From a virus, in the IMG/VR virus record IMGVR_UViG_3300044641_007277, positions 1-64,000 of that record: a stretch of DNA of 64,000 nucleotides; one strand, written 5' to 3'. How positions within the stretch are numbered: position 1 is the first letter of the stretch; each line of letters begins with the position of its first letter. The notes under the pieces were generated by a model. That model was not told the DNA's origin, did not search any database, and worked only from the letters and a program-made list of their open reading frames with translations. Positions 12,549 to 64,000 of this stretch are shown here, piece by piece. The translations under genes and the position numbers were made by a program.

Positions 12549-12607
12549 AAGTAATTGAAAAGTGTGTAAATGAATATTATAGATAAATATACAAAATTGT
12601 TTTCTAA

Positions 12608-14086
12608 TTAAAAACTTTCTTCTGATTGAGGAACTCCCCATTCCCTTCTTGTACAACGATATTTGGCTATCGTTCTACCAAGTTTTAAGTCATAATATAA
12701 TTTAAAACCTTCAATTAAATAAAATCCACTTAAAAATCTATCAACGCTAATAGTTAAATTTGTTATAGGGCTAAGAAAATTTTCTTCGTTATCCTTTATT
12801 TCCTTTTCACTCATAAAGTTTTTATTATCATTAAAATTATTTAAAACAGTTATCAAAATAGGAATTCTTTCCATTTTTATAACAGCAGGATTCCAAGACC
12901 ATAAATCAATATCAAGATACATTTTCTCAAGTTCTTTATTATTAACATAGTTTTGATATTGAGCAAGAGCAAAATTTTGATGTACATTACCACTTGGTAG
13001 AGAATATTGAATGCCGTACCAATTATTACGCAAATGTTCCTTTTCTATAGTTTCATCTTTTAATCCACGTAATCTAATTTTAGTATCTTCTGTTCCAGGT
13101 GTAGCTAAAGGATTAAAAGTAATAAGATTTTCTTCACCGATAGTTTGTAATGTATGGTCATAAAAATACATCCTTTTACCATATCCTTGAGAATATGATA
13201 TAGCTGAAGAATTATTAATAAGATTGTAGTCTATAATTCTGTTATTAGAATTAGATGTAGATTCAAAATTCGATAATATCAAAGGAGCAGGAGAATTTGG
13301 TTGTTCATCTACTGGCATTGCTGGATTGAAATCGTCAATAATATCTCTTTCAAATATAATTAAAGCCTCATCAAATTCTTTAGTTTGGTCTAGTTGTTTT
13401 TCTACTTCAATATAATTTACATTATAAAAAATATCAATAAATACTCTATAAAAAGTGTTTTCATTTTTCCAAGCATGATTTGCTATATGTAAAATAAAAT
13501 CTTTATAAGATTTCCAATCACATATCCATGTCATTTCATCGTTAGTAACATCATCAATATTAGTAGCAAAACCCAATTCTAATTCAGTAGCAACTTTTTT
13601 AATAACATCTAATGATGTTCCCTTAAAAGCCTTGTTTTTTTCAATCCATATTTTTTTTATATTCAATATCCCACTTATTGTAAAAATTGTAAATGTACTT
13701 TCATCATTCAAGTTTTCAGTTTCTACACGAGTTATGAGATAATCATTTCTAATGGGTTTATATGTGTCATTATGACTTCTGATATAAACCGAAACAATAT
13801 CCCCATCTTTAGGAATATTTTTTGATATGAAAGATTTTCTTGTTATAATAAGTTTAAGATGAATTATTGGTAAAAAATTAGTACAATCTATTTCTAAATT
13901 ACCAATCTCTTCTTGTAGAAATCTCGTATTATTAATTAAAATATATGGAAATAATTTACCTAAAAACTTATCACTTTTATAGCCATCTGAATTTTTAAGA
14001 TCAAGCATTTTTTGCTCTTGATCCATATCAATCAGTATTATAGTAGGATTTGATACTGTTCTAATTTTGGTTTTTTCAAAAGCCAT
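12608..14086 (-). CDS. Baseplate hub-like protein
   Basis: 492 aa. The central segment, KGTSLDVIKKVATELELGF followed by DEMTWICDWKSYKDFILHI, matches the layout of phage tail-hub proteins (gp27/gpD/VgrG-hub type), where a helix pair precedes a W-rich segment. The N-terminal part is a beta-barrel-like region with SVYIRSHNDTYKPIRNDY. The C-terminal part has further strands ending in a Cys/Arg-rich strand (IAKYRCTRREWG). It should sit at the centre of the baseplate and connect the tube to the spike. It is tightly packed, 1 nt from the LysM-like gene. Hub identity is inferred from motif and context. Confidence 0.65.
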   Translation of the reverse strand: MAFEKTKIRTVSNPTIILIDMDQEQKMLDLKNSDGYKSDKFLGKLFPYILINNTRFLQEEIGNLEIDCTNFLPIIHLKLIITRKSFISKNIPKDGDIVSVYIRSHNDTYKPIRNDYLITRVETENLNDESTFTIFTISGILNIKKIWIEKNKAFKGTSLDVIKKVATELELGFATNIDDVTNDEMTWICDWKSYKDFILHIANHAWKNENTFYRVFIDIFYNVNYIEVEKQLDQTKEFDEALIIFERDIIDDFNPAMPVDEQPNSPAPLILSNFESTSNSNNRIIDYNLINNSSAISYSQGYGKRMYFYDHTLQTIGEENLITFNPLATPGTEDTKIRLRGLKDETIEKEHLRNNWYGIQYSLPSGNVHQNFALAQYQNYVNNKELEKMYLDIDLWSWNPAVIKMERIPILITVLNNFNDNKNFMSEKEIKDNEENFLSPITNLTISVDRFLSGFYLIEGFKLYYDLKLGRTIAKYRCTRREWGVPQSEESF

Positions 14087-20357: not shown

Positions 20358-21758
20358 TTATTCTTCTGTTTCGTCTGTAATAACAAATGCTTTATTTGCA
20401 TTTACAACCAAACCTAATCTTCGCATCAATGCTCTATTTATAAGAATAGGTGTGCTTTTGCTTGCTCTATCTGTGGGAGAGAATCTAACATTTTTTACAA
20501 GTACATCATTGAAAACTACATCCATTTTAATAACTGGTCTTTCATGTATTTCAGTTCCAACAGCAGTTTTTGAATATCCTACAATATCGTGTACAAATTT
20601 CTTATCTCCTATTGACCACTTTAGTTTTCCATCTTTTTCTTCAACCGAATCGGCATGAATACTACATGATTTGGAACTATTACCAGTATCAAATTTAGCA
20701 ACCATTATTCCAACATTTGGTATTTCCATATTTTCAAGATAACCTACTTCTAAATTATAATATGACCAATTTGATTTATCGGTCACATAATCTATTATTT
20801 TAGATACAATAGGTGAACCTAAAACTTTTGAAATACCTTCAGTCCCAGGTGAAGAGTTCACTTCTAAAATATATGGTTTTTTTGTATTTTTATCAATCAT
20901 TATATCAACACCTGACCAATGACAACCAACTGCTGTCGCCGCTTCAAATGCCAACTCTTCTAGTTCTGGTGTCAATTCATAAGTATCTACGGTTCCACCC
21001 AAAGAATAATTCGTTCTAAAATCATTTTCAACTGATGTTCTTTTCATAGAACCTAAGATAATTTTATTATCTGCTTTTTCAGTTAATGGATTGAATTTTT
21101 TAACCAATGTCTGAATTCTAATGTCAAAATCAGCTTCAATTTTTTCTTGAATTAAAATTTCGCTCTCTGGGTTTAGTTTCTTAATTGTTTGATATACCGA
21201 TTTCAAAGATTGATATGAATCTACAACTGATACTCCAATACCTTGAGTCCCTGAAATAAGTTTTACAATTACTGGGAATTTATTTCCAATAATTTCTAAT
21301 GCTTTATCTATAAATTTTTCATCAGGAACTAAAGAATACTTTGGAACAGGGAGTCCATATTCTTCAAGAATTTGTGAAGTAATATATTTGTTTTCACAAG
21401 TTTTGATTGAATCTAATGAATTTACAATAAAATATCTTGCCTTTTCAAGTTGATAAAATAAACGGCGAGTGTGAGAGTTTTCTATAACCCCCCTTCTAGG
21501 AATGATTGCAGTTGTATCGGGATCAATAAGAATTCTCTGTTCTTTATAGTGTATCAGATGTCCATTGTATACTTTTTCAAGCAAAGCGTTATTTATATTA
21601 ATAACATAACATTCAATACCTCTTTCTTTACATACCTCTTCAAAGGATTTAGTAGTTGAACTACCATTGGCTTTTCCAGTAAAGATAATTATTTTCATGT
21701 CCTTTTGTTTTGATTCATTTAAGAATGAAGTGTAGTCGAGAATATTCTTATTAAACAT
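20358..21758 (-). CDS. RimK-like ATP-grasp ligase fused to RimB-like aspartic protease domain
   Basis: 466 aa from the ATG at 21758; an in-frame TTG at 21770 is a weaker start. Residues about 20-315 are a RimK-type ATP-grasp ligase: FPVIVKLISGTQGIGV, the LIQEKI strand, SMKRTSVENDFRTNYSLGG and YILEVNSSPGTEGI, all key ATP/Mg positions of ribosomal protein S6 glutamate ligase. Residues about 340-460 match the PF05618 'ATP-dependent zinc protease'/RimB family, a retropepsin-like fold with FDTGNSSKSCSIHA (catalytic-type Asp near 357), ERPVIKMDV and SPTDRASKSTPILINRALM. In bacteria RimK and RimB are separate proteins that tune S6 glutamylation. The N-terminus (LDYTSFLNES) looks like a T4 capsid-targeting sequence. 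It has a GATATATA box. Confidence 0.85.
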   Translation of the reverse strand: MFNKNILDYTSFLNESKQKDMKIIIFTGKANGSSTTKSFEEVCKERGIECYVININNALLEKVYNGHLIHYKEQRILIDPDTTAIIPRRGVIENSHTRRLFYQLEKARYFIVNSLDSIKTCENKYITSQILEEYGLPVPKYSLVPDEKFIDKALEIIGNKFPVIVKLISGTQGIGVSVVDSYQSLKSVYQTIKKLNPESEILIQEKIEADFDIRIQTLVKKFNPLTEKADNKIILGSMKRTSVENDFRTNYSLGGTVDTYELTPELEELAFEAATAVGCHWSGVDIMIDKNTKKPYILEVNSSPGTEGISKVLGSPIVSKIIDYVTDKSNWSYYNLEVGYLENMEIPNVGIMVAKFDTGNSSKSCSIHADSVEEKDGKLKWSIGDKKFVHDIVGYSKTAVGTEIHERPVIKMDVVFNDVLVKNVRFSPTDRASKSTPILINRALMRRLGLVVNANKAFVITDETEE

Positions 21759-21790
21759 AATATTGGTCAAGTTTAAAACTTACAACATCA

Positions 21791-22279: not shown

Positions 22280-22415
22280 TTACAAATATGATAATCAAAA
22301 CCATGCCAAACGATTTATTTTATTATTTTTTGCCATTTTTTCATATTTTTGTAAAATATTGACATATCATTATGACAACTTTTCTTAATAAAATTCTAAA
22401 TTGTCAGAGGACAAT

Positions 22416-23342
22416 ATGAAAAATACTTATAGTGTAGGTCTTATAACCTATAATTATCTTGATAGATTTAGAGAATGTATATCTCATATACCAAATATGA
22501 AGGGTAAGCCTTTTGTTGTTGTAAATGATGGAATCCCCTATGAATCAAAGGAATATAGGGATGATATGATTGTCTTACAACACGCCACAAATAAAAAAAT
22601 AGCTATAAGTAAAAATGATGCTTTGCGTTATCTTTTAACATATGACACAGAATGGATTTTCATTATGGAAAATGATATGAAGATTTTAGATTCTGCTGTT
22701 TTTGATTATTATATTGAAGTTGCAAATAAAAGTGGATTACGACACTTAAATTTTGCTTTACATGGAAAAGATAATTGGAATGAAGAAAGAACAGATGTTG
22801 CTCCTAGATTAATCTATGATAATGGCATATCGCTTTACAATTATGCTGGAGGATGTTTTCAACTTTATCATCGTTCAATATTTGATAAAGTTGGACTTTA
22901 CGATGAGTTCTATAAGAATTGTTGGGAACATTTAGATATGACTTATCGTACTACTCTTGCAGGATTCCATACGCCGTTTTGGCTCTCTGCTGATGTCAAT
23001 AATTCGCACCATTATTTAGAACAAATTGACTATAAAGAACAATCTGATGTAAGTTCAAAAGATATAAACCCAAATTATTATGAAGGTCTATTTTATTGGA
23101 AATTCAAATTCGGTTCTTGGGTTGCAAATATACCTGAATGGATTAATGAAACTTATCATACAAATATTGTAATGGAAATGTTTCAAGAAAGACGATATGA
23201 AGAACTCTCAAAACTCTTTATGAATTATTATAGAAATGAACAAAGCCCATTCTTTAACACAGAATACAAATACGGAAATGTCTATGATAATGTATGGGGA
23301 AAGGTTGATGATAGCGGTAACCTTATGATTTTCCATAATTAG
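22416..23342 (+). CDS. GT-A glycosyltransferase (family 2-like)
   Basis: 308 aa from ATG 22416, which has a clear AGAGGA ribosome site 5 nt upstream; the open frame reaches a TTG at 22401. GT-A fold: SVGLITYNYLDRF at the start, FVVVNDGI, KNDALRYLL and the metal-binding motif END in WIFIMENDMKIL (about residue 85). CWEHLDMTYRTTLAG resembles the catalytic ED region of GT2 enzymes. Sugar and acceptor unknown. It is isolated among leftward genes; its 3' end overlaps the convergent RuvC-like gene by 20 bp with no terminator between them, so opposing transcription may interfere. Confidence 0.75.
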   Translation: MKNTYSVGLITYNYLDRFRECISHIPNMKGKPFVVVNDGIPYESKEYRDDMIVLQHATNKKIAISKNDALRYLLTYDTEWIFIMENDMKILDSAVFDYYIEVANKSGLRHLNFALHGKDNWNEERTDVAPRLIYDNGISLYNYAGGCFQLYHRSIFDKVGLYDEFYKNCWEHLDMTYRTTLAGFHTPFWLSADVNNSHHYLEQIDYKEQSDVSSKDINPNYYEGLFYWKFKFGSWVANIPEWINETYHTNIVMEMFQERRYEELSKLFMNYYRNEQSPFFNTEYKYGNVYDNVWGKVDDSGNLMIFHN

Positions 23343-24376: not shown

Positions 24377-26014
24377 TTATCCTTTCACTTGAACGATTTC
24401 AGCACTTACAACCCAATATATTGTCTTTCCATTTTGTCCTGTTACTGTAAAAACTGGTCCACCATTTGAAGTATTAGCAGTCACATTAATATCCCAGTTA
24501 GAATCATCTTCGGCTATAACTGTCTTTGAAACTGTCCCAACTAAAGCAACACTACCTGCTAATGAAATTCTATCCATAACGAAACTTAAAATATATCCAG
24601 CAGATTCTCCATCAGCATCAGTTCTTCTTGCACTACAAACAGCGTGAACAGTCCAAGTAGTATCACCTGGTAAAGAAAGGTATTGTGAACTACCATCCAT
24701 AAAAAGATCTGTTGGTGTATTATCGGTAGTCGTATTCCTTAAAATAACCTTCATAGATTGAGCATCACCAGTTTCTGCAAAATATCCAGAAGAATGATTT
24801 ATACTACCATATTCTGTTCCTTTTGCTCCATAACCTAATGCTACAGAATATTGTCCTGTTGCTGTGTTTTCTCTACCTCCAACAATAGTAGTATTGTTTC
24901 CACTTGCTACTTGAGTTGAAAGTGCTCTTTGTCTTTGTAAATCTACAGCATATGAACCTCTTTTATTTCCACCTGTTGATGTGCCATCGGGAAGTGCAGC
25001 TAATATGGCACCTATTGTTTTAGGTTGTATTACAATATCTCCTGCTGGAGAAACAACATCAACAAGAAGTTGAGAAGCATGCACTGTATTATTTGGTGAA
25101 CTTGTATTTTCAGTTGTTGTAAAACCATTCAAATCACCTTGATTACCCTGATTTCCTTGATTTCCTTGATTACCCTGATTTCCTTGACGACCTTGATTAC
25201 CCTGATTACCATTAGTACCACTATCGCCTTGATTACCTTGGAAACCATCAATACTTTGAGGTCCTTGTGTACCTACAGTTCCTTGTCTTCCTTGAAATCC
25301 TTGACGACCTTGATTACCTTGATCACCTACATTACCTTGATTACCCTGACGACCTTGATTACCTTGCTGTCCTTGATTTCCTTGATTTCCATCAATACTT
25401 TGCGGACCCTGTCTACCTTGATTACCCTGCTGTCCTTGATTTCCTTGTCCACCCTGTTGTCCTTGATTTCCTTGTCGCCCTTGATTTCCTTGGTTGCCTT
25501 GATTGCCTTGATTTCCTTGAGGTCCTTGTCTTCCTAATAAACCTTGAGCACCAGAATCACCTTTTAGTCCTTGAAATCCTCTTAAACCTTGAACGCCTTG
25601 AAGACCTCGAACCCCTTGATCTCCATCTTGACCTTGAATACCTTGAAATCCTTGAGTTCCACGAACACCTTGAGAACCTTGAGTTCCAAGAGAACCTTGT
25701 CTTCCTTGCATACCTTGAATACCACGAATTCCCTGTGAACCTTGAATACCTTGAATTCCTTGTAAACCACGAACACCTTGATTACCTTGAGAACCTTGAA
25801 TACCTAATAATCCTTGAATCCCCTGTGTTCCTTGAGTTCCTAGAATACCTTGAGAACCCTGTGTTCCAGTTGTTCCTTGTATACCTCGGATACCTTGCGT
25901 TCCTTGTACACCTTGAGAACCTTGTGTTCCTAGATTACCTTGCAAACCTATCCCAGTGGGTCCTTGTACACCTTGTGTTCCTTGTACGCCTTGCGTTCCT
26001 TGTGCTCCGTCCAT
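24377..26014 (-). CDS. Collagen-like tail fibre with YadA-like head
   Basis: 545 aa. Residues 2 to about 295 are almost uninterrupted Gly-X-Gln/Gly-X-Arg triplets (GTQGVQGTQG), able to form a collagen triple helix. Residues about 300-545 are globular: a QPKTIGAILAALPDG segment, then GGRENTATGQYSVALGYGAKG and INHSSGYFAETGDAQSM, a YadA-head-like repeat pattern, then a beta-sandwich ending WVVSAEIVQVKG. The trimer head should project from the shaft and contact the host or an attachment point. Proline is scarce, so stability must come from Gln/Arg rather than hydroxyproline. It has its own GATATATA box and is probably followed by co-transcription with 23951-24361. Confidence 0.85.
   Translation of the reverse strand: MDGAQGTQGVQGTQGVQGPTGIGLQGNLGTQGSQGVQGTQGIRGIQGTTGTQGSQGILGTQGTQGIQGLLGIQGSQGNQGVRGLQGIQGIQGSQGIRGIQGMQGRQGSLGTQGSQGVRGTQGFQGIQGQDGDQGVRGLQGVQGLRGFQGLKGDSGAQGLLGRQGPQGNQGNQGNQGNQGRQGNQGQQGGQGNQGQQGNQGRQGPQSIDGNQGNQGQQGNQGRQGNQGNVGDQGNQGRQGFQGRQGTVGTQGPQSIDGFQGNQGDSGTNGNQGNQGRQGNQGNQGNQGNQGNQGDLNGFTTTENTSSPNNTVHASQLLVDVVSPAGDIVIQPKTIGAILAALPDGTSTGGNKRGSYAVDLQRQRALSTQVASGNNTTIVGGRENTATGQYSVALGYGAKGTEYGSINHSSGYFAETGDAQSMKVILRNTTTDNTPTDLFMDGSSQYLSLPGDTTWTVHAVCSARRTDADGESAGYILSFVMDRISLAGSVALVGTVSKTVIAEDDSNWDINVTANTSNGGPVFTVTGQNGKTIYWVVSAEIVQVKG
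25131..26011 (-). repeat. 9-nt collagen-coding repeat tract, about 293 residues
   Basis: In-frame Gly-X-Gln triplets of the fibre at 24377-26014. The tract is less homogeneous than those in the 2261-aa fibre and includes Arg and Leu in the variable positions. Confidence 0.9.
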
Positions 26015-50660: not shown

Positions 50661-53600
50661 TTAACTTGAAATAAAGATACTATGTGAATTACCTACGCTA
50701 ACATGCTTCCAATTTGTAAGCGTTCCTATTTGAACGGGGGATGATAATGTTGTTACGCCACCATTACCCAGTTGCCCTGAAGTATTTAATCCCCAGCCCC
50801 ATAATGTACCATCGGTTTTAATTGCCATAGTATGACTATTATTTGCAGAAACACTTTGCCAATTTGTGAGTGTTCCTATTTGAACTGGGGATGATAAATT
50901 TGAAAGCCCACCTGTACCTAATTGTCCAGACCCATTAAACCCCCAGCCCCATAGGGTACCATTTGTCTTTATAGCCATTGTATATAATTGACCACAAGAA
51001 ACACTTTGCCAGTCTGTAAGTAAACCTACTTGCGTTGGATTTAAAAGAAGTGAAGATGCCCCTAATCCAAGCTGACCAAGATTATTTTGACCCCAACCCC
51101 ATAGAGTCCCATCTGTTCTAATTGCCATAGTATGATTAGCACCTCCGCCACCTCCAGCTGAAACACTTTGCCAATTTGTAAGCGTTCCTATTTGAACTGG
51201 AGATGATGAATTTGAAACCCCACCTGTACCTAATTGTCCTGATCCACCAAAACCCCAGCCCCATAGGGTACCATTTGTTCTTATTGCCATTGTATGTGTA
51301 TCCCCTGTTGAAACACTTTGCCATATTGTCACTGTACCTACTTGAACTGGAGATGAATATGATGTAGTATTATTCGTTCCTAACCTACCTGATCCATTAG
51401 ACCCCCAGCCCCATAGGGTACCGTCGGTTCTTATAGCCATAGAATGTTGAGAACTTGTAGATATTTTAGACCAACTTGTTAATGTACCTACTTGAGTAGG
51501 TGATGACCTTATAACTAAATCGTTTAGCCCTAATTGACCTGAACTATTTAAACCCCATGACCAAAGGGTACCATCCGTTTTAATAGCTAATGTATGTTCA
51601 TTACCTGCATATATAGATGACCAATCTGTTAATGTTCCAACTTGAACTGGGGATGACGTTAAAGTTCTTATATTACCTGTAAGTAATACATTATTACCAG
51701 TAGCATATATTTCATTAGATGTATTAATTGCTACAGTATGACTCCCAGCTGCAGATACATTCTGCCAATTAGTAGATGTTCCTATTTGAACTGGAGATGA
51801 AATTGAAGTGTTAGTTCCATCTCCTAATTGGAAAACAGAATTATCTCCCCAGCCCCATAGACTACCATCGGTTTTTATTGCCATGGTATGTGATATTTTC
51901 GTTGAAACTTTTGACCAATCTGTTAGCGTTCCTATTTGAACTGGAGACGAGTAAGTTGTCTTATTTCCAGTTCCTAATTGTCCTGATGAATTTTCACCCC
52001 AGCCCCATAGGGTACCATCGGTTTTGACAGCCATTGTACTACTCAAATATGAAGAAGCAACTGACCAATTTGTAAGTAAACCTATTTTACCAAGTATTGT
52101 ATTATTTAAATCATCAGAACCTATTTCATTTATAGAATTACTACCCCATCCCCATAGAGTTCCATCTACCTTAACTGCCATACTATGACTATCACCTGCT
52201 GAAACACTTTGCCAATTTGTAAGTGTTCCTATTTGTACTGGAGATGAATAAGTTGTGGTATCGCTTGTACCCAATCTACCTAAGAGATTATTACCCCATC
52301 CCCAAAGAGTCCCGTCTGTTTTAATTGCCATAGTACGACTATCATTAGATGATACTTTTGACCAATTTGTAAGCGTTCCTATTTGAACTGGTAAAGAATA
52401 TGTTGTAGTATTATTCGTTCCAAGTTGTCCTAATGAATTAAATCCCCAGCCCCATAGACTACCATCTGTCTTTATAGCCATAGTGTGATTAGATGTTTCA
52501 GTAGCCGATACACTCTGCCAATTTGTAAGCGTTCCTATTTGAACGGGGGATGATACTGAATCTGTTGGTCTTCCTACATAAAAACCCGCAGTATAAATTT
52601 CATTAGATGTATTAATTGATACTACATTAAGATTACCAGTATCTATACTACTCCAATTTGTAAGCGTTCCTATTTGTACTGGGGAAGATACTGATGTTCC
52701 CATTAAACCTATAAAATCTCCTCCCCAACTCCATAGGGTACCATTTGTTTTAATAGCCATTGTATAACTTTCACCTGCTGAAATACTTTGCCAATCTGTA
52801 AGCGTTCCTATTTGAACTGGAGATGATATTGATGTTAAACTACTATTTCCTAATTGTCCTAAACTGTTTAGACCCCATCCCCATAGGGTACCATCAGTTT
52901 TGATTGCCATTGTATGACGACTGCCTGTCGAAATATTTTGCCAATCATTAAGTGAACCGATTTGAACTGGAGACGAATAATATGTTATATTTCCAGTTCC
53001 TAATTCCCCATAAAAATTACCACCCCATCCCCATAGAGTTCCATCTGTTTTTATAGCCATTGTATAACTTAAACCCGCTGAAACATTTTGCCAATTTGTA
53101 AGCGTTCCTATTTGTACTGGAGATGAGTAAGTTGTTGTGTTTCCAGTTCCTAATTGTCCTACAGTGTTTTGACCCCAACCCCATAGACTACCATCTGTCT
53201 TTATAGACATTGTATAAAAATTTCCACCAGAAACACTCTGCCAATCTGTAAGTGTTCCTATTTGAACTGGAGATGATATTGATGTTAAACTACTATTTCC
53301 TAATTGTCCTAAACTGTTTAGACCCCATCCCCAAAGTGTACCATTGGTTTTAATAGCCATTGTATGACTAATACCAGCATAAACATTCTGCCAATCTGAA
53401 AGTGCTCCTATTTGAACTGGAGACGAATAAGTTGTTGTGTTTTCAGTTCCTAATTCTCCTGATGTATTGTTACCCCATCCCCATAGAGTTCCATCTGTTT
53501 TTATAGCTAATGTGTGTGTAGATCTCCTCGAAGAAGCACTTAACCATGTTGTTAGAGTCCCAACTTGAATTAATAAAGTGCCTAATAAAGTCTCGGAACC

Positions 53601-54881
53601 AAGTTTACCCGAAGCGTTACTCCCCCATCCCCATAGAGTTCCGTCTGTTTTTATAGCCATACTATAAAATTGACCACAGGAAACACTTTGCCAATTTGTT
53701 AGTAAACCTATTTGAACTGGAGACGAATAAGTTGTTGTGTTTCCAGTTCCTAATTGTCCTGATGAATTTTCACCCCAGCCCCATAGGGTACCATCGGTTT
53801 TTATAGAAATAGTATGGTTAGTTCCACCTGAAACACTTTGCCAATTTGTTAGTAAACCTATTTGAATAGGAGATGAGTATGTTGTAGTATTATTCGTTCC
53901 TAATTGTCCTGATGCATTTAAGCCCCAGCCCCATAGGGTACCATTTGTTCTTATTGCCATTGTATAATTATTACCTGCTGATATACTCTGCCAATTTGTA
54001 AGCGTTCCTATTTGAACTGGGGATGATATTGATGTTAAACTACTATTTCCTAATTGTCCTGATGTATTTAATCCCCAACCCCAAAGAGTACCATTTGTTC
54101 TTATTGCCATCGTATAACTTCTACCCGCTGAAACACTTTGCCATATTGTTACTGTTCCTACTTGAACTGGAGAGCTTGTAGATGTAGTAGGTCTACCTAT
54201 GAGATTAGATGCACCAGCACTATAAATTTCATTTAGTGTATTAATCGCAATAGTATAATTAGTTCCTAAAGCTACGCTTCTCCAATTTGTAGAACCTCCT
54301 ATTTGAACTGGAGACGATATTGATACTATGGTACCTCTACCTAATTGACCTGATGTGTTTAGCCCCCATCCCCAAAGGGTTCCATTAGTTTTTATAGCCA
54401 TTGTATGACTAACACCAGCATAAACATTCTGCCAGTCCGTTAATACACCTACTTGAATCGGAGAAGATGTTGATGTAGTATTACTCCTCCCTTGTTTACC
54501 AGCCGTATTACTACCCCAAGCCCAAAGAGTACCATTAGTTCTTATAGCCATTGTATAATCTGCCCCAGCTGAAACACTTTGCCATCCAGTAAGCGCACCT
54601 ATCTGGATTGGAGAAGAAGGGCTTACAAATCTATTATTATTTCCCAACTGACCGCTACTATTTGTACCCCATCCCCATAGTGTACCATTAGTTTTAATAG
54701 ACATTGTAAATTGATTACCAGCCGAAACACTTTGCCAATTTGAAAGATTATCTATTTTTGATAATTTAACCATTATGGTTTCATCACCCTTTTGTCCATA
54801 TAAGCTTGAACCTGTTGTAGAGAGATATTTATTTATTATTTCAACTATTTTTCTGGCTTGAATTATAATATCCTTTATCAT
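50661..54881 (-). CDS. Giant RCC1-repeat beta-propeller protein
   Basis: 1406 aa. The first 48 residues are a helical leader (IIIQARKIVEIINKYL). Then about 50-residue RCC1-type repeats follow to the end, each of the form NWQSVSAGNxYTMAIKTDG then TLWGWGxNxxGQLG then SSPVQIGTLT. I count 27 complete repeats and a partial C-terminal one (NWKHVSVGNSHSIFISS), which could close a blade by the usual Velcro arrangement, giving 28 blades or four seven-bladed propellers. Repeats 4, 15 and 21 are divergent (INTSNEIY instead of IKTDGTLWGWG). A secretion signal is absent. Neighbours are fibre proteins and a fibre chaperone, so it is probably a virion adhesin or fibre tip. Confidence 0.85.
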   Translation of the reverse strand: MIKDIIIQARKIVEIINKYLSTTGSSLYGQKGDETIMVKLSKIDNLSNWQSVSAGNQFTMSIKTNGTLWGWGTNSSGQLGNNNRFVSPSSPIQIGALTGWQSVSAGADYTMAIRTNGTLWAWGSNTAGKQGRSNTTSTSSPIQVGVLTDWQNVYAGVSHTMAIKTNGTLWGWGLNTSGQLGRGTIVSISSPVQIGGSTNWRSVALGTNYTIAINTLNEIYSAGASNLIGRPTTSTSSPVQVGTVTIWQSVSAGRSYTMAIRTNGTLWGWGLNTSGQLGNSSLTSISSPVQIGTLTNWQSISAGNNYTMAIRTNGTLWGWGLNASGQLGTNNTTTYSSPIQIGLLTNWQSVSGGTNHTISIKTDGTLWGWGENSSGQLGTGNTTTYSSPVQIGLLTNWQSVSCGQFYSMAIKTDGTLWGWGSNASGKLGSETLLGTLLIQVGTLTTWLSASSRRSTHTLAIKTDGTLWGWGNNTSGELGTENTTTYSSPVQIGALSDWQNVYAGISHTMAIKTNGTLWGWGLNSLGQLGNSSLTSISSPVQIGTLTDWQSVSGGNFYTMSIKTDGSLWGWGQNTVGQLGTGNTTTYSSPVQIGTLTNWQNVSAGLSYTMAIKTDGTLWGWGGNFYGELGTGNITYYSSPVQIGSLNDWQNISTGSRHTMAIKTDGTLWGWGLNSLGQLGNSSLTSISSPVQIGTLTDWQSISAGESYTMAIKTNGTLWSWGGDFIGLMGTSVSSPVQIGTLTNWSSIDTGNLNVVSINTSNEIYTAGFYVGRPTDSVSSPVQIGTLTNWQSVSATETSNHTMAIKTDGSLWGWGFNSLGQLGTNNTTTYSLPVQIGTLTNWSKVSSNDSRTMAIKTDGTLWGWGNNLLGRLGTSDTTTYSSPVQIGTLTNWQSVSAGDSHSMAVKVDGTLWGWGSNSINEIGSDDLNNTILGKIGLLTNWSVASSYLSSTMAVKTDGTLWGWGENSSGQLGTGNKTTYSSPVQIGTLTDWSKVSTKISHTMAIKTDGSLWGWGDNSVFQLGDGTNTSISSPVQIGTSTNWQNVSAAGSHTVAINTSNEIYATGNNVLLTGNIRTLTSSPVQVGTLTDWSSIYAGNEHTLAIKTDGTLWSWGLNSSGQLGLNDLVIRSSPTQVGTLTSWSKISTSSQHSMAIRTDGTLWGWGSNGSGRLGTNNTTSYSSPVQVGTVTIWQSVSTGDTHTMAIRTNGTLWGWGFGGSGQLGTGGVSNSSSPVQIGTLTNWQSVSAGGGGGANHTMAIRTDGTLWGWGQNNLGQLGLGASSLLLNPTQVGLLTDWQSVSCGQLYTMAIKTNGTLWGWGFNGSGQLGTGGLSNLSSPVQIGTLTNWQSVSANNSHTMAIKTDGTLWGWGLNTSGQLGNGGVTTLSSPVQIGTLTNWKHVSVGNSHSIFISS
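50664..54740 (-). repeat. RCC1-coding tandem repeat array (about 150-nt unit)
   Basis: About 27 imperfect 135-165-nt units, some nearly identical over long stretches (for example near 51940-52030 and 53700-53800; 52800-52900 and 53240-53340), suggesting recent expansion or exchange within the gene. Confidence 0.85.
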
Positions 54882-54899: not shown

Positions 54900-55349
54900 T
54901 TATAATGGTTCACTTGGCCATATAACATGATCAGGTGAATCATAATTCGTTACATCTCTTAATTCCTGACGATAAGTCTTCCATTCTAATCTCTTCTCCT
55001 CACTTAAAGGAGAGTCTGAAAGTTGAGTCCAATCACATTCAAATAATAACCTATTACGCTTTTCTCTGATTTCTCTCCATTTCTGCTCAGTCTCCTCTTG
55101 TATTTCTTGTTCCGTTTTAGGTCTTCTTGTTTGATATTCAACAACTTCATCTTCATTTATCTCAAAATAAGAACCGCTAATCACAGAATTATCTATATTA
55201 GGAGCTTCAACGAATCTAAAAGGATACCACCCATATTCTTTTAATGTTTGATTATCAAATAAATAAAAATTAGAGAAGTTTTCCCAATTTTTAGGCAAAT
55301 CTCTGTTATAATCTACAACTTGATTATTTTCTACTCTTGCGTATTTCAT
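54900..55349 (-). CDS. Tail fibre assembly chaperone
   Basis: 149 aa. The C-terminal half, REKRNRLLFECDWTQLSDSP then YRQELRDVTNYDSPDHVIWP, is the well-known phage tail-fibre assembly chaperone pattern (R..R..LL..CDWTQL.D.PL.....W..YRQ.LRD). The N-terminal half (WENFSNFYLFDNQTLKEYGW) is an Asn-rich domain typical of the same family. It should assist trimerisation of the adjacent fibre proteins. Located between the RCC1 gene (18 nt) and two small fibre-domain genes. Confidence 0.85.
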   Translation of the reverse strand: MKYARVENNQVVDYNRDLPKNWENFSNFYLFDNQTLKEYGWYPFRFVEAPNIDNSVISGSYFEINEDEVVEYQTRRPKTEQEIQEETEQKWREIREKRNRLLFECDWTQLSDSPLSEEKRLEWKTYRQELRDVTNYDSPDHVIWPSEPL

Positions 55350-55355
55350 ACTACA

Positions 55356-55727
55356 TTATATATTTTGACCACCAACAAAACCGTACCAGTTCGTTCCACC
55401 ATCTGTTGTTACAAAAGAAAATACATCTCGTTTTCCATTTGTACTTGTTAAAGTAGGTGCAGTACCACTTGGCCATTTGATTGCAGGTGCCCACGCTACA
55501 CCTCTTGCTGTCCCATCTGCTGTAAAAATCAAACTAAAATTAGCAGCAAAGGAACTTGATGGAACATTTGTAATAGTCATAATTGTAATATTAGCATTCA
55601 AACTCACATTAAAAACATTACCATTAGACAAATTCAATGTAAGTTGTCCAGTTGATATAGTAGGAGAAGTATAAATCTCTTTATAATTCTTTAATGTTCC
55701 TTTATCTATCGTTACTAAAAATTCCAT
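55356..55727 (-). CDS. Small fibre-domain protein
   Basis: 123 aa. Residues 30-123 match a recurrent phage fibre domain: LNANITIMTITNVP, FSLIFTADGTARGVAWAPAI, KWPSGTAPTLTSTNGKRD and FVTTDGGTNWYGFVGG. Usually a C-terminal tip or shaft module; here it stands as a separate gene, 6 nt from the chaperone gene. It could bind the end of a larger fibre. Confidence 0.72.
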   Translation of the reverse strand: MEFLVTIDKGTLKNYKEIYTSPTISTGQLTLNLSNGNVFNVSLNANITIMTITNVPSSSFAANFSLIFTADGTARGVAWAPAIKWPSGTAPTLTSTNGKRDVFSFVTTDGGTNWYGFVGGQNI

Positions 55728-55746: not shown

Positions 55747-56007
55747 TTAGTTTGTAGGGTTCATTATATGAATTATATAGTTCTTATCAGATGTAGGAAT
55801 CGCTGCGAATGTTACAGTCACCGTATCGGCAGATGCTGCATCTATATCTACCATAATTTGTTCTAAAGTATCTTCATCCCATACCTGAACAATTAAAAAT
55901 TGCCAACCAAGATTATGCGTAATAGTAAAAGTAGAATTTATACCATCAGCATCAAACCTTTGTCTATAATGACCTATTCCACTACTTGTTGTTACTATTC
56001 CTGCCAT
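55747..56007 (-). CDS. Small fibre-domain protein with beta-sandwich fold
   Basis: 86 aa. FTITHNLGWQFLIVQVWDED and VTVTFAAIPTSDKNYIIHI follow the FxxxHNLxxxxVxVxVxD pattern found in phage fibre and baseplate modules. It lies 14 nt after the 2261-aa fibre, probably the same transcript, and may be a fibre tip subunit. Confidence 0.68.
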   Translation of the reverse strand: MAGIVTTSSGIGHYRQRFDADGINSTFTITHNLGWQFLIVQVWDEDTLEQIMVDIDAASADTVTVTFAAIPTSDKNYIIHIMNPTN

Positions 56008-56021
56008 ATCTTACTTTAATT

Positions 56022-59000
56022 TTATACTACTCTAAATTGTCCACTTGAACTTACAACAACCCAAGTTGTATTTGTTACTATACATACAATCTCAATAGCA
56101 CCATGTGATGTTATTCTTTCTATATATCCACCTGTACCAAGTGTTGTAGGTAAGGATTGGAATTGTATTTGCTGACCTGCATTTTGAGCAATTTTATACC
56201 CAAGTCCACTTATATCAACAATCCTAAATGAATTACCTACACTTGCTGTTGAAGGCAAAGTAAATGTCAATTGACTTGCAGCAGTAAGAGAATCTGAAAT
56301 ATAATTTGTATTTGCTACTATTGTAGTATTCGTAGTTACAGCAATCCATCCACTACTTCCTCCAGATGGACCTTGATTACCTTGAACACCTAATATACCT
56401 TGGATACCTTGAACTCCTTGAGTTCCCTGATTGCCTTGGTTGCCTTGAGCTCCAACATTACCTTGGTTGCCTTGAGCACCTTGCGTTCCTTGAACGCCTT
56501 GATCGCCCTGAGTACCTTGATTACCTTGTGTACCTTGATTACCTTGGTTGCCTTGAGCACCTTGGGTTCCTTGAACGCCTTGATCGCCCTGAGTACCTTG
56601 ATTACCTTGTGTACCTTGGGTTCCTTGAGTTCCTTGTGGACCCTGAGTACCTTGATTTCCTTGGTTACCTTGAGTTCCTTGAGTACCTTGGTTACCTTGA
56701 TTACCCTGAGCACCAACATTGCCTTGATTTCCTTGGTTGCCTTGATTACCCTGAGCACCAACATTGCCTTGATTTCCTTGGTTGCCTTGTCTTCCTTGAA
56801 CTCCTTGAGTTCCTTGAGTACCTTGCACACCTTGAGTGCCTTGGTTACCTTGGTTTCCTTGATTACCTTGTCTACCCTGAGTACCTTGAACTCCTTGAGT
56901 ACCTTGGTTACCTTGGTTTCCTTGATTTCCTTGGTTGCCCTGAGCACCAACATTGCCTTGATTACCTTGATTACCCTGAGCACCAACATTGCCTTGAGTA
57001 CCCTGTGTCCCTTGGACTCCTTGATTACCTTGGGTTCCCTGAGTTCCTTGAGTACCTTGATTACCTTGATTACCCTGAGCACCAACATTGCCTTGATTAC
57101 CTTGGTTTCCTTGATTACCTTGGGTTCCCTGAGTTCCTTGAGTACCTTGATTACCTTGGGTTCCCTGAGTTCCTTGAGTACCTTGAGTACCTTGAGTACC
57201 CTGAGCACCAACATTGCCTTGATTCCCTTGGTTTCCTTGATTACCTTGAGTACCTTGAGTTCCTTGCACACCTTGAGTACCTTGGTTTCCTTGGTTACCT
57301 TGTCTACCCTGTACACCCTGTACACCCTGTACACCCTGTACACCCTGTGTACCCTGAGTTCCTTGGTTACCTTGAGTTCCTTGAACACCTTGCGTTCCTT
57401 GCGTTCCTTGCGTTCCTTGATTTCCTTGATTTCCTTGGTTACCCTGAGTTCCTTGAACACCTTGCGTTCCTTGGTTACCTTGTCTACCCTGTACACCCTG
57501 TACACCCTGTACACCCTGTGTACCCTGAGTTCCTTGGTTACCTTGAGTACCTTGAACACCTTGCGTTCCTTGGTTACCTTGGTTACCTTGCACTCCTTGA
57601 TTTCCTTGATTTCCTTGGTTACCCTGAGTTCCTTGTGTACCTTGATTACCTTGGTTTCCTTGATTGCCCTGAGTACCTTGAGTACCTTGAGTCCCTTGTG
57701 TACCTTGAACACCTTGAGTACCTTGAACACCTTGCGTTCCTTGGTTACCTTGGTTACCTTGCACTCCTTGAGTACCCTGAGTACCTTGCACTCCTTGAGT
57801 CCCTTGAGTACCTTGCACTCCTTGAGTACCCTGAGCTCCTTGAGTACCTTGCACTCCTTGAGTACCTTGATTCCCTTGGTTGCCCTGATTACCCTGGGTT
57901 CCTTGAACACCTTGAGTACCTTGGTTTCCTTGGTTTCCTTGGTTACCTTGGTTGCCTTGAGTACCTTGGGTTCCTTGAACACCTTGAGTTCCTTGATTAC
58001 CTTGATTGCCTTGGTTGCCTTGATTACCTTGGGTTCCTTGGGTTCCTTGAATCCCCTGAGTACCTTGAGCACCTTGGGTTCCTTGGTTACCTTGGTTACC
58101 TTGAGTACCTTGGGTTCCTTGAACACCTTGAGTTCCTTGATTGCCTTGGTTGCCTTGATTACCTTGATTACCTTGATTGCCTTGATTGCCCTGTACACCT
58201 TGAGTACCTTGGTTGCCCTGAGTACCTTGAACTCCTTGATTACCCTGATTACCTTGGTTACCTTGATTACCCTGAGCACCTTGAGTGCCCTGTACACCTT
58301 GAGTGCCTTGATTACCTTGGTTACCCTGAGTACCTTGAACTCCTTGAGTTCCCTGATTACCCTGATTACCTTGGTTACCTTGGGTTCCCTGAGTGCCTTG
58401 AACTCCTTGAGTTCCCTGATTACCCTGATTACCTTGGTTACCTTGAGTTCCCTGAGTGCCTTGAACTCCTTGAGTTCCCTGATTACCTTGGTTGCCCTGG
58501 GTTCCTTGAACTCCTTGAACTCCTTGAATTCCTTGTGTACCCTGACTTCCCTGGTTACCTTGTGGACCTTGAGTACCTGTTGGACCTAAAGTTGTAACTA
58601 CATAAGAATAATGTATAGTACCTTCGGTATAAAATGTAACACTTCTATTTTGATTATCTAAATTATTCAGATATAAATTAAGTATTAACCTATCTGTTAA
58701 ATTTAGAGAAGCAGTTGTTGCTACGGCATTTGCCTTTACTTCAACTGGTGTAGTATTATTTACTGACCATCCAATAGCAACTGCATCCGAAGTAAACAAC
58801 AATGTAGTAGTTGCTCCATCATATTTAGATACAGTAAAGTAATACTCTAAATCATCATTTTCAGTATTTTTAGTCCAATAGATATAAGCGTGCCAAAGAC
58901 CATTTGGAATCAAAATAACATTCGGATCCCCAGAATTTGTGATCCAGCCTGAATCAACAAGAACATTTTGTTGATTAGCAGTCAAATTGGTTACTACTGT

Positions 59001-62000
59001 CGTTTGTCCAGCAGTAGTTGTAGATTTTGATAATTGAAGATAAGGACTCGGTGTTTGTGATACAGAAGAATTTAGGAAATAGCTTATACCTCCAGAAATT
59101 CCACTTATACCTTCATTTCCTTGGGTACCTTGAACTCCTTGAACCCCTTGGACACCTTGTGTACCTTGAGTTCCTTGGTTACCTTGATTACCCTGATTTC
59201 CTTGATTACCTTGGTTACCTTGGTTACCTTGGTTGCCCTGAACGCCTTGTGTACCTTGAGTTCCTTGATTGCCTTGGTTACCCTGATTTCCTTGATTACC
59301 TTGAGTACCTTGAACCCCTTGAGTTCCTTGATTACCTTGGTTACCCTGATTTCCTTGATTACCTTGAGTACCTTGAACCCCTTGAGTTCCTTGATTACCT
59401 TGATTTCCTTGGTTGCCCTGAACGCCTTGTGTACCTTGAGTTCCTTGATTACCTTGGGTACCTTGGGTTCCTTGATTGCCCTGATTACCTTGGTTACCTT
59501 GATTACCTTGGGTTCCTTGGGTTCCTTGAACGCCTTGGTCACCCTGAGTACCTTGGTTGCCTTGGTTGCCTTGGTTGCCTTGGTTGCCTTGATCACCTTG
59601 AGTACCTTGGGTTCCATCATAACCCTGATCACCTTGAGTACCTTGGGTTCCATCATAACCCTGATCACCTTGAGTACCTTGGGTTCCATCATAACCCTGA
59701 TCACCCTGAGTACCTTGGTTACCTTGAGTTCCATCATAACCCTGATCACCTTGAGTACCTTGAGTTCCATCATAACCCTGATCACCTTGAGTACCTTGGA
59801 TTCCATCATAACCCTGATCACCTTGAGTACCTTGGGTTCCATCATAACCCTGATCACCTTGAGTTCCTTGAACGCCTTGATCGCCCTGAGTACCTTGATT
59901 GCCTTGGTTTCCTTGCACGCCTTGGTCTCCCTGTGTCCCTTGATTACCTTGGTTACCTTGGTTGCCTTGGTTACCTTGATTACCTTGAGATCCAACGTTA
60001 CCTTGATTACCTTGAGCTCCAATGTTACCTTGGTTGCCCTGGTTACCTTGGTTACCTTGAGTACCTTGGTTACCCTGAGTACCATCATAACCCTGATCAC
60101 CCTGAGTACCTTGAGTTCCATCATAACCCTGATCACCTTGAGTACCTTGGTTGCCTTGATTACCTTGAGTCCCTTGGTTACCTTGGTTGCCTTGAGTCCC
60201 TTGTGTACCTTGTACACCCTGCGTTCCTTGGTTTCCTTGGTTGCCTTGATTACCTTGAGTCCCTTGTGTACCTTGTACACCCTGCGTTCCTTGGTTACCT
60301 TGCACACCTTGATTACCTTGGGTTCCTTGATTACCTTGATTTCCTTGATTTCCTTGGTTACCTTGGTTACCTTGAGTACCCTGATTTCCTTGGGTGCCTT
60401 GAGTTCCTTGGTTACCCTGATTTCCTTGGGTGCCTTGAACTCCTTGATCTCCTTGCGTACCTTGATTACCCTGATTGCCTTGGGTACCTTGAACACCCTG
60501 ATCTCCTTGGGTTCCTTGAGTACCCTGAACACCTTGATCTCCTTGGGCCCCTTGAGTACCTTGTACACCTTGAGTACCTTGAGTACCTTGGTTGCCTTGA
60601 TTTCCTTGAGTCCCTTGAACCCCTTGAGACCCTTGGCTACCTTGAGTACCCTGAACACCTTGATCTCCTTGTGTACCTTGGTTTCCTTGATTACCTTGGG
60701 TTCCCTGAGTACCTTGGTTTCCTTGATTACCCTGGTTACCCTGGGTTCCTTGAACACCTTGAGTACCTTGAGTACCTTGGTTGCCTTGATTGCCCTGATT
60801 ACCCTGGTTACCCTGGGTTCCTTGAACACCTTGAGTACCTTGAGTACCCTGTTCACCATTCAATCCATTAAAACCAGAAATACCTTGTAAACCAGTTATA
60901 CCCTGAATACCCTGTGTCCCTTGTGGACCCTGAGTACCTTGATTTCCTTGGTTTCCTTGGTTACCCTGTCTTCCTTGGTTACCTTGGTTACCTTGGTTAC
61001 CTTGAGTACCCTGTATGCCTTGAGTTCCTTGAGTTCCTTGATTCCCTTGGTTACCCTGGTTCCCTTGATTACCTTGAACCCCCTGTGTTCCTTGATTCCC
61101 TTGGTTACCTTGATTTCCTTGATTCCCTTGGTTACCTTGGTTACCTTGGTTACCTTGAGTTCCCTGATTACCTTGAGTTCCCTGAACACCCTGTGTTCCT
61201 TGAGCACCATCAAAACCTAAAGTCCCTTGAACACCTTGCGTACCTTGAGCACCATCAAAACCTAAAGTCCCTTGAACACCTTGCGTACCTTGAGTACCAT
61301 CAAAACCTAAAGTCCCTTGAACACCTTGAGCACCTTGAGTACCTTGATTACCTTGAACTCCCGTATCACCTTGTGTACCCTGGACACCTTGAGCACCTTG
61401 AGCACCATCTAATGGAGCTGGATAATCTATCCATAGTCCAGTGGAAGTTTGATAACCCAAATATGCACCATCAGCTGGTGTTGTTATTGTAACATCATTT
61501 AAATCATCTAAATTAATAGTAGTAACCGATTCTCCTCCACCAGAAGAAAGGCTTCGTATTAATCCACCTTGAATAAAAATCGCATCACTACCACTTGATA
61601 AATCAGTTGCCCCACCTCTTACTACTAGATACCCAAGAAAAACAGCATTTTGTAAAGTTATAGGGGATTCAACAAATGCTTCATAAGGAAGTCCATTTAA
61701 AGCAGAACCTAAACTTGAATACTCCTTAACACCATAATAAACAATGATATCACTAGCTGAATCTGGTATTTGAAATAATCTCTGTACAGACCATTTATTA
61801 GTAGATACAGTAGCTAATGTTCCATCTCCATCATCATAACTTGCTGGATCTATATCTGTGTAAAAAGATCCTGAATTATTATCATATACAAATCCACCAC
61901 TTCCGTCTGCATACATCCTACATAAACTTGAAGGTGTACTTGGTGATAATGTAGTTATATCGGGTTCAAATGGATCAGTCCAATAATTATTACCTATAAT

Positions 62001-62807
62001 ATATGCTTTACCCGATGCTCTGTCTATTCTGAGATTATTACCATTTGCAGATATATTTAAACCTTCTTTTTTAATAGGTCCAAGTGTATTTAAGATTTCA
62101 TATACCTTATGATTTACACCATATGTAGTAAATGAATCTGTTGTTACTAAATTTACATTTGTAAGATTAATATGACATAAGTGACCGATAACAATATAAT
62201 TCTTATAATCACTATCTGTAAATGGTGTTGTTTTTTGTTGTAGAGTTCCAGTACTATCAATATAAATATAAGTAAATGGGTCAGTTAATAAATTCGTGAT
62301 AGTTTGGTTTACAAATGCATTCCATTTTACTTCGGTAATATCTTGTGAAAGTTCCCCTGAAACAATTGAGTGTGTGACTATTTGACCTTGACCTTCTGAT
62401 ATGTTAAATGTAGTTCCACCGATTGTAGCACTTAAAAACCCCCCTGTTTTTATACCTGTAATTTCTATTCCTTCTATATTATTATTCTCTTCTACTAACC
62501 ATTTATTATCCCCATAGTATACAATAGTTATACCCTGACCTTTACCATCCCATAAATACTGCGAATTACCTTGAATAGTAGCACCACTATCACTACCATT
62601 AGGTTGAATTATAATATTACTTACATAATTTGCAGTATCTAATATATGTAACTTATAGCCAAAAGAAATTATACTCCCAGACGCTGTAATCTGAGGTAGC
62701 GTTAATATAGAACCCCCAGCATTAGAACCAGTTACTCGAACTAATTCATAAAGTTGATTTATACTGAGATTACCAGTTGACCAATTATATGTATTTTTAT
62801 ACCCCAT
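56022..62807 (-). CDS. 2261-aa collagen-like tail fibre
   Basis: Layout: residues 1-466 globular and beta-rich, ending with a typical pre-shaft segment (NLDDLNDVTITTPADGAYLG); 467-1232 Gly-X-Gln collagen triplets; 1233-1406 a beta-sandwich (VILIPNGLWHAYIYWTKN, LNLTDRLILNLYLNNLD); 1407-2149 collagen again; 2150-2261 a C-terminal domain (IAVTTNTTIVANTNYI, GNSFRIVDISGLGYKI). X is mostly Thr, Asn, Val, Asp or Ala and Y almost always Gln; proline is nearly absent. At 0.286 nm per residue the two shafts would be about 219 and 212 nm. No signal peptide. The N-terminus probably attaches to the baseplate and the C-terminal domain trimerises or contacts the host. A GATATATA box lies 66 nt upstream. Confidence 0.9.
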   Translation of the reverse strand: MGYKNTYNWSTGNLSINQLYELVRVTGSNAGGSILTLPQITASGSIISFGYKLHILDTANYVSNIIIQPNGSDSGATIQGNSQYLWDGKGQGITIVYYGDNKWLVEENNNIEGIEITGIKTGGFLSATIGGTTFNISEGQGQIVTHSIVSGELSQDITEVKWNAFVNQTITNLLTDPFTYIYIDSTGTLQQKTTPFTDSDYKNYIVIGHLCHINLTNVNLVTTDSFTTYGVNHKVYEILNTLGPIKKEGLNISANGNNLRIDRASGKAYIIGNNYWTDPFEPDITTLSPSTPSSLCRMYADGSGGFVYDNNSGSFYTDIDPASYDDGDGTLATVSTNKWSVQRLFQIPDSASDIIVYYGVKEYSSLGSALNGLPYEAFVESPITLQNAVFLGYLVVRGGATDLSSGSDAIFIQGGLIRSLSSGGGESVTTINLDDLNDVTITTPADGAYLGYQTSTGLWIDYPAPLDGAQGAQGVQGTQGDTGVQGNQGTQGAQGVQGTLGFDGTQGTQGVQGTLGFDGAQGTQGVQGTLGFDGAQGTQGVQGTQGNQGTQGNQGNQGNQGNQGNQGNQGNQGTQGVQGNQGNQGNQGNQGTQGTQGIQGTQGNQGNQGNQGRQGNQGNQGNQGTQGPQGTQGIQGITGLQGISGFNGLNGEQGTQGTQGVQGTQGNQGNQGNQGNQGTQGTQGVQGTQGNQGNQGNQGTQGTQGNQGNQGTQGDQGVQGTQGSQGSQGVQGTQGNQGNQGTQGTQGVQGTQGAQGDQGVQGTQGTQGDQGVQGTQGNQGNQGTQGDQGVQGTQGNQGNQGTQGTQGNQGTQGNQGNQGNQGNQGNQGTQGNQGVQGNQGTQGVQGTQGTQGNQGNQGNQGTQGVQGTQGTQGNQGNQGTQGNQGNQGTQGDQGYDGTQGTQGDQGYDGTQGNQGTQGNQGNQGNQGNIGAQGNQGNVGSQGNQGNQGNQGNQGNQGTQGDQGVQGNQGNQGTQGDQGVQGTQGDQGYDGTQGTQGDQGYDGIQGTQGDQGYDGTQGTQGDQGYDGTQGNQGTQGDQGYDGTQGTQGDQGYDGTQGTQGDQGYDGTQGTQGDQGNQGNQGNQGNQGTQGDQGVQGTQGTQGNQGNQGNQGNQGTQGTQGNQGTQGTQGVQGNQGNQGNQGTQGVQGTQGNQGNQGNQGNQGTQGVQGTQGNQGNQGNQGNQGTQGTQGVQGNQGNQGNQGNQGNQGNQGNQGTQGTQGVQGVQGVQGTQGNEGISGISGGISYFLNSSVSQTPSPYLQLSKSTTTAGQTTVVTNLTANQQNVLVDSGWITNSGDPNVILIPNGLWHAYIYWTKNTENDDLEYYFTVSKYDGATTTLLFTSDAVAIGWSVNNTTPVEVKANAVATTASLNLTDRLILNLYLNNLDNQNRSVTFYTEGTIHYSYVVTTLGPTGTQGPQGNQGSQGTQGIQGVQGVQGTQGNQGNQGTQGVQGTQGTQGNQGNQGNQGTQGVQGTQGTQGNQGNQGNQGTQGVQGTQGNQGNQGTQGVQGTQGAQGNQGNQGNQGNQGVQGTQGNQGTQGVQGNQGNQGNQGNQGNQGNQGTQGVQGTQGTQGNQGNQGTQGAQGTQGIQGTQGTQGNQGNQGNQGNQGTQGVQGTQGTQGNQGNQGNQGNQGTQGVQGTQGNQGNQGNQGTQGVQGTQGAQGTQGVQGTQGTQGVQGTQGTQGVQGNQGNQGTQGVQGTQGVQGTQGTQGTQGTQGNQGNQGNQGTQGTQGNQGNQGNQGVQGNQGNQGTQGVQGTQGNQGTQGTQGVQGVQGVQGRQGNQGTQGVQGTQGNQGNQGNQGTQGTQGTQGVQGTQGNQGTQGTQGVQGVQGVQGVQGRQGNQGNQGTQGVQGTQGTQGNQGNQGNQGNVGAQGTQGTQGTQGTQGTQGNQGTQGTQGTQGNQGNQGNQGNVGAQGNQGNQGTQGTQGTQGNQGVQGTQGTQGNVGAQGNQGNQGNVGAQGNQGNQGNQGNQGTQGVQGTQGRQGNQGNQGNQGTQGVQGTQGTQGVQGRQGNQGNQGNVGAQGNQGNQGNQGNVGAQGNQGNQGTQGTQGNQGNQGTQGPQGTQGTQGTQGNQGTQGDQGVQGTQGAQGNQGNQGTQGNQGTQGDQGVQGTQGAQGNQGNVGAQGNQGNQGTQGVQGIQGILGVQGNQGPSGGSSGWIAVTTNTTIVANTNYISDSLTAASQLTFTLPSTASVGNSFRIVDISGLGYKIAQNAGQQIQFQSLPTTLGTGGYIERITSHGAIEIVCIVTNTTWVVVSSSGQFRVV
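56363..58588 (-). repeat. C-proximal collagen-coding tract of the giant fibre
   Basis: About 742 residues of Gly-X-Gln. The 9-nt coding unit gives long near-identical runs at the DNA level and spurious open frames on the other strand. Confidence 0.92.
59113..61408 (-). repeat. N-proximal collagen-coding tract of the giant fibre
   Basis: About 766 residues of Gly-X-Gln, including a subregion of nine GYDG interruptions (about 59610-60135) and three LGFDG interruptions near the N-terminal start (61205-61320). Confidence 0.92.
59605..60140 (-). repeat. GDQGYDGTQG higher-order repeat inside the collagen tract
   Basis: Nine copies of GDQGYDG[TI]QG; several adjacent copies are 36 nt apart and almost identical in DNA. 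Tyr-Asp replaces the usual X-Gln, making a chemically distinct patch in the shaft. Confidence 0.85.
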
Positions 62808-62955: not shown

Positions 62956-64000
62956 TTAAATGACTGATCCAGTTCCAAGATAAGTCCAATTTTGACCATT
63001 TAGGTCTCCTCTCCATACTCTACTTGTTGTAGATGCAGCTTGAGCAACTGATGGCACATTATATGGTCCTACGGTTCCTTCTCCTGTCGTTTTGACTCTT
63101 GTTTCGACATATTGATATTGTGAATCTCTATACAAATTTAATACATATGTTCTTGGAGATGTTGTATTTCCAAATCTACCGCAATACACTATATTTTTAA
63201 TAGAGTATTTAGAACCTTGATTATCTATTTTATAATACCAGTTTTGAGTATCACCATCAGTATTAACTAATCCTTTCGCCAACCATAAGTCTGCTGAATT
63301 TCCTGCTATTGTTGCAGATGCTGAACCTGATGCAGGCATTGGAGTTGAGTTAATAGCACCACTACCTGCATTTAATGTGATATACCCATTTGTACTCAAA
63401 TATAGATTTGTACTTGATACGCCATTAGATGCAAAGGTTGGAATTGTTATAGCTGTAGAACTATTACCATCATCTGAACTTGTAAATGTGCCTGAATAGA
63501 GAGTATAACCAGTAATACTTGATGGAAATGCTATTGTATCTGTTGAGAATCTCCACCCGAATCTTGGTGCTATTGCATTATAGTTTTGTAAAATTTCAGT
63601 TGAAGTTAAAGCTCTATTATAAACCTGAACAATAGGAATTTTACCATCAATTGTTTCTAAATCGTCCCATCTCCGAGCAATATAGTACCCTAATCCACTT
63701 GATAATGGAGTTACACTTGTTGTAAGTGTAGATTCTTGAGTTCCATTTCTGTATAGCCTTACAGTTGTTCCATCATATGTAACAGAAGCATTATACCAAA
63801 CATTAGCTGAAGGAGTAAACCCAGTAGGAACTTTGAATCCATCGGCAGAAGTAAAAAATCCACCTGTTATTTTTCCATCCCAAGGACTTGCACAAAATCC
63901 CAAAACAAAATTTATATTACTCGCATCAACATATCGTTCTGTTATAATTTGAGGGATTACATTTGTTGAAGGAATGGAGTCTAACTTAAACCAAGCATTT
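62956..64000 (-). CDS. LamG/concanavalin-A-like lectin domain protein (5' end outside window)
   Basis: The frame is open to the right edge (further residues before the TTG at 63903 read ...ITERYVDASNINFVLGF), so the start is not in the window and a TTG start is not needed. The visible region 1-150 is a Laminin-G-like jelly roll: ITGGFFTSADGFKVPTGFTP, WYNASVTYDGTTVRLYRNG and the closing LTSTEILQNYNA motif typical of these domains. Residues about 165-345 form a second beta domain (SSITGYTLYSGTFTSSDDG, YYKIDNQGSKYSIKNIVY, TYVLNLYRDSQYQYVETRVK). Likely glycan-binding part of a tail fibre or receptor-binding protein. Confidence 0.8.
   Translation of the reverse strand, partial: NAWFKLDSIPSTNVIPQIITERYVDASNINFVLGFCASPWDGKITGGFFTSADGFKVPTGFTPSANVWYNASVTYDGTTVRLYRNGTQESTLTTSVTPLSSGLGYYIARRWDDLETIDGKIPIVQVYNRALTSTEILQNYNAIAPRFGWRFSTDTIAFPSSITGYTLYSGTFTSSDDGNSSTAITIPTFASNGVSSTNLYLSTNGYITLNAGSGAINSTPMPASGSASATIAGNSADLWLAKGLVNTDGDTQNWYYKIDNQGSKYSIKNIVYCGRFGNTTSPRTYVLNLYRDSQYQYVETRVKTTGEGTVGPYNVPSVAQAASTTSRVWRGDLNGQNWTYLGTGSVI

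Follow-up and report, generated by a model that had tools for sequence, protein, structure and literature searches.

The window analyzed here, a stretch of 64,000 nucleotides (positions 1 to 64,000 of a viral contig of 65,665 bases), contains on its minus strand a gene for a collagen-like fiber protein (56022–62807). This gene forms one open frame of 6.8 kb, with 2,261 codons from ATG to stop, and was defined from the ORF list, its translation, and Pfam collagen matches along its length. Its position and 2,261-aa product are those given in an earlier sequence-only reading. The protein comprises an N-terminal non-collagen region (residues 1–467; 61407–62807, with PHROG and tblastn matches), a first collagen tract (residues 468–1241; 59085–61406), a connector domain predicted to be a β jelly roll (residues 1242–1407; 58587–59084), a second collagen tract (residues 1408–2151; 56355–58586), and a 110-residue C-terminal tip domain (residues 2152–2261; 56022–56354), all on the minus strand. 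Two very long collagen blocks had been proposed before; they are present, at 774 and 744 residues rather than the 766 and 743 first counted. Large antisense ORFs at 56366–58597 and 59027–60871 were rejected as genes, being by-products of the repeat.

In translation both tracts are unbroken, with 258 Gly-X-Y triplets in the first and 248 in the second. When the residues of the protein were shuffled 500 times, the longest run obtained was 11 triplets, against the 258 observed. In the record, 39 PF01391 matches exceed the Pfam Collagen cut-off, 33 of them in the fiber gene. Most triplets (411 of 506, 81%) read GNQ, GTQ, or GVQ, and the 1,012 X and Y positions hold five prolines (0.5%), 39 charged residues (about 4%), and no cysteine, which agrees with the Gly-(Thr/Asn/Val)-Gln, almost proline-free composition described previously. 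The longest run of triplets without proline is 213. In the PDB, the best sequence match for the GXQ tracts is entry 8zxl; this repeat contains proline and matches via composition, and it was disregarded. At 0.286 nm per residue the tracts would measure 221 and 213 nm, about 434 nm in total; shafts of 210–220 nm and a span of more than 400 nm, as the sequence-only reading proposed, hold only if both tracts are fully triple-helical. A native triple helix is not guaranteed, since proline and charge pairs, the two best-known stabilizers of collagen, are nearly absent. By host–guest stability values, Gln may be favorable at the collagen Y position. The Gly-X-Gln bias is compatible with the suggestion that Gln/Thr side-chains, glycosylation, or ions may provide stability.

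The connector (166 residues) is present in 59 IMG/VR loci, 30 of them non-redundant at 95%, and its pairing with collagen is obligate: collagen immediately precedes the connector in 59/59 loci, and follows it in 50 of the 51 loci that allowed the test. An AlphaFold2 model built from 33 aligned sequences (pLDDT 91.9, pTM 0.89), which replaced an earlier model from a shallow alignment (pLDDT 74), predicts a β jelly roll and so bears out the β-sandwich expected between the tracts. The closest fold is the C-terminal jelly roll of CocE/X-Pro dipeptidyl peptidase (PepX) type hydrolases (PDB entry 3puh; Z score 14.8, RMSD 2.7, 163 of 174 residues aligned). At 12% identity the likeness is one of fold only, and the connector, unlike the hydrolase domain, lies between collagen tracts without a catalytic domain. 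As regards the C1q/TNF jelly roll of trimerization heads, Foldseek matches the connector to TNF family members at a TM of only about 0.25–0.33. The closest BFVD structures (TM 0.90–0.91) include "Collagen triple helix repeat" proteins of uncultured Caudovirales; UniProt entries A0A6J5SWS4, A0A6J5NH96, and A0A6J5N627 display the same connector fold at 27–34% identity and carry a collagen annotation, made from sequence only and without a described function. The window copy has no Pfam match above chance level, and searches for the connector gave no notable sequence match in the PDB and no copy in named phage records or bacterial genomes. In three loci (L046, L075, L076) the protein bears an additional, divergent copy of the connector, 36–39% identical to the window domain, and the connector/collagen protein of L080 also holds a CBM_5_12 carbohydrate-binding module.

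On a sister contig from IMG/VR metagenome 3300032295 (199,927 bases; loci L010, L019, and L031), a colinear gene encodes a 2,146-aa protein of the same architecture, its tracts having 236 and 231 triplets. In the codon alignment the two proteins are 96.4% identical over the N-terminal region, 95.8% over the connector, and 87–89.5% over the tracts. The C-terminal tip is the fastest-diverging part, at 65% compared with 87–96% elsewhere. Differences at aligned Gly codons (n = 455) comprise 146 silent and no replacement changes, those at tract Y positions 79 silent and 11 replacement, and those at X positions 64 silent and 149 replacement, all of these counts possibly being inflated where repeat units are aligned to non-orthologous neighbors. 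The zero glycine loss stays informative despite this caution. Indels within the tracts all add or remove whole triplets (multiples of three codons), a pattern that slippage of triplet units alone could also yield. The tract is real and, as judged from these substitutions, its glycine register is under purifying selection.

Glycine at every third position is shared by other folds, and the Gly-X-Gln tracts might instead adopt a polyglycine-II bundle or a non-twisting trimer, or form a partly disordered, flexible linker. The scarcity of proline and charge would fit such structures. Polyglycine-II type helices occur in the tail fiber adhesin of phage S16 and in antifreeze proteins, a collagen trimer that does not twist is known (PMC11869133), and proline-free collagen regions are expected to take 10/3 rather than 7/2 symmetry (PMC13138384). 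However, a chain with 258 and 248 triplets and no turn or break cannot fold back into a short bundle, and the absence of glycine replacements over 455 aligned positions argues against a loose linker. A structure other than the canonical collagen triple helix is considered rather unlikely.

The N-terminal region and the genes around the fiber point to the phage tail. Residues 175–426 match the PHROG tail fiber family phrog_16641 (E = 3e-14) and residues 122–282 match phrog_5668 (E = 1e-7). By tblastn the N-terminal region matches a tail fiber gene of Stenotrophomonas phage DLP6, and also fiber/tailspike or hypothetical genes of Streptomyces phages, with identities over fiber-type genes in the range of 23–29%. 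The fiber gene is followed, on the same strand, by an 86-aa ORF directly downstream (55747–56007), possibly a small tip or tail protein, whose DNA is partly conserved in the sister (the match was made in a shifted frame), then by a 123-aa tail fiber domain protein (55356–55727; PHROG tail fiber), a 149-aa tail fiber assembly chaperone (54900–55349; Phage_tail_APC, E = 3e-18, and phrog_4912), and a 1,406-aa protein composed almost entirely of RCC1 repeats (50661–54881), a type that adjoins collagen fiber genes in several relatives. In L039 and L040 the collagen/connector protein has a homolog of the 123-aa protein as its C-terminal domain, which ties this separate gene to the fiber. Directly upstream, also on the minus strand, is a 554-codon ORF with a Laminin_G_3/ConA-like domain (62956–64000, running past the window; record positions 62959–64620). 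The neighborhood is conserved, parts of the cluster recurring beside collagen fibers in L033/L021, L039, and L040/L041. At the end of one relative stands Peptidase_S74 (chaperone of endosialidase), a hallmark of trimeric tail fibers and spikes. The relatives of the C-terminal tip are C-terminal domains of other phage proteins; this, together with its fast divergence, would fit a host-contacting module. Profile comparison gave no support for a kinship of the tip with the N-terminal 112 residues (probability 6.5%).

Another reading is a collagen-like head fiber or capsid decoration serving weak adhesion of the capsid to surfaces. In SPP1, gp12 trimers of collagen-like fold attach to the capsid (PMC6316719), capsid fibers occur on some marine Bacteroidota jumbo phages (PMC13282480), and the LamG-type protein encoded upstream matches a PHROG virion structural (head) family. 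Against a place on the capsid, the N-terminal region and the neighbors match tail fiber and tail fiber chaperone families, and a relative carries Peptidase_S74. Tenacibaculum phage PTm1, which has capsid fibers and was tried and rejected as a cultured relative, has no collagen match in its genome. On balance a capsid location seems improbable. That the long tract is an artefact of assembly or repeat collapse is scarcely credible: assemblers do break at collagen genes, since 41 of the 59 related ORFs run off the contig end and the record of the window itself ends inside another collagen gene, but the longest exact repeat in the fiber gene is 80 nt, the frame stays open over its full 6.8 kb, and a gene from a separate metagenome shares the architecture, its N-terminal region and connector differing from those of the window protein at about 4% of amino acids.

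The fiber is one member of a sub-family of phage collagens, so far undescribed, in aquatic viruses, and is neither a freak nor an assembly error. The sub-family is marked by unusually long, proline-poor, and charge-poor tracts and by the conserved connector. Its longest member (L078) has at least 3,393 aa, ending at the contig end, with one run of 470 triplets; further long runs comprise 370 (L069), 319 (L077), 278 (L073), and 266 triplets (L083). The protein of the window is long, but is not the extreme of its family, and the sequence-only view of an exceptional fiber, taken to mean one that stands alone, is not supported. In the relatives the triplets are Gly-Thr-Ser, Gly-Ser-Ser, Gly-Leu-Ser, or Gly-X-Gln (the last including Gly-Leu-Gln), so that Gln is not essential to the family, and proline makes up about 1.5% of their X and 0.4% of their Y positions.

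Compared with this family, the phage and bacterial collagens described in the literature contain more proline or more charge. The collagen-like proteins of E. coli O157:H7 prophages (EPclA and others; PMC3368898) likewise place a phage Gly-X-Y domain in tail fiber-type proteins, and the collagen domain of EPclA is reported to melt at 42 °C without hydroxyproline. However, these prophage proteins have 48% proline in X and many charges, in contrast to 0.5% proline in X and Y and about 4% charge in the window protein; viral collagens have 22% proline in X and Gram-positive ones 31% (PMC3368898). SPP1 gp12, a capsid accessory protein (PMC6316719), likewise provides a collagen-like fold in a phage virion trimer, but has 64 residues and sits on the capsid, whereas the window protein has 2,261 residues and tail fiber neighbors. 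In the tail fiber FibU of Staphylococcus phage 80alpha (PMC7048315) the predicted collagen-like segment spans about 31 residues (178–208). The literature, as far as it was covered, which was in part and so amounts to weak evidence, yielded no description of a proline-poor class of phage collagens.

The portal of the virus is of the T4 type, and its nearest relatives are those of uncultured huge phages and of Prevotella Lak phages (32–39% identity). Collagen and connector are both absent from the nearest portal relatives tested (LR756500, LR745206, and Prevotella phage Lak-A1). A Shine–Dalgarno-like motif precedes only 4 of 36 genes; this scarcity and the low G+C content weakly suggest a Bacteroidota host. 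Two further collagen-like genes accompany the fiber gene. The first (24377–26014, minus strand) encodes a 545-aa protein whose triplets vary more and whose C-terminal part is not collagen, and the sister has a 545-codon collagen frame in the 102.5-kb region of its contig (G001). The other lies beyond the window (positions 64607–65665 of the record, G000, minus strand) and is cut by the contig end; its sister counterpart has 1,377 aa and a 276-triplet run. Glycosyltransferase family 2-like genes are located at 11307–12656 (minus strand) and 22401–23342 (plus strand), and their products might glycosylate the Thr-rich fibers. The window also encodes a RimK-like ATP-grasp ligase, which may include a zinc protease-like segment at its C-terminus by a weak match (20358–21770, minus strand), and, near the portal gene, a protein with a TnsA-like endonuclease N-terminal domain (6685–7179, minus strand).

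These observations are probably best explained by a homotrimeric collagen-like virion fiber, most likely one of the long tail fibers, that belongs to a large myovirus with a T4-type portal. Along such a fiber the N-terminal region would be virion-proximal, followed by the 258-triplet shaft, the connector, the 248-triplet shaft, and the C-terminal tip. Three chains would associate, with the connector and terminal domains holding their register; the role of the jelly roll would be to keep the chains together and in register mid-shaft. As rods, the tracts may then hold the tip at a distance from the virion, where it would contact the host. Recombination between repeats may let the tracts grow and shrink by whole triplets while Gly is kept at every third position, and lengthening and shortening of this kind would make the reach of the fiber evolutionarily adjustable.

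Proline, hydroxyproline, and salt bridges are the usual explanation for the stability of collagen. Tracts that lack nearly all of these stabilizers, yet keep a perfect Gly register, would allow a direct test of the minimal needs of the triple helix. For biomaterials, the family may offer genetically simple, hydroxylation-free scaffolds, and the modular connector marks its members in metagenomes. More tentatively, large aquatic phages may possess a fiber class in which triple helices almost free of proline and of charge extend for hundreds of nanometers, the connector re-aligns the chains, and triplet expansion tunes their reach. The tail fibers of T4 measure about 150 nm; for phage biology, the family predicts fibers several times longer in environmental jumbo-like phages.
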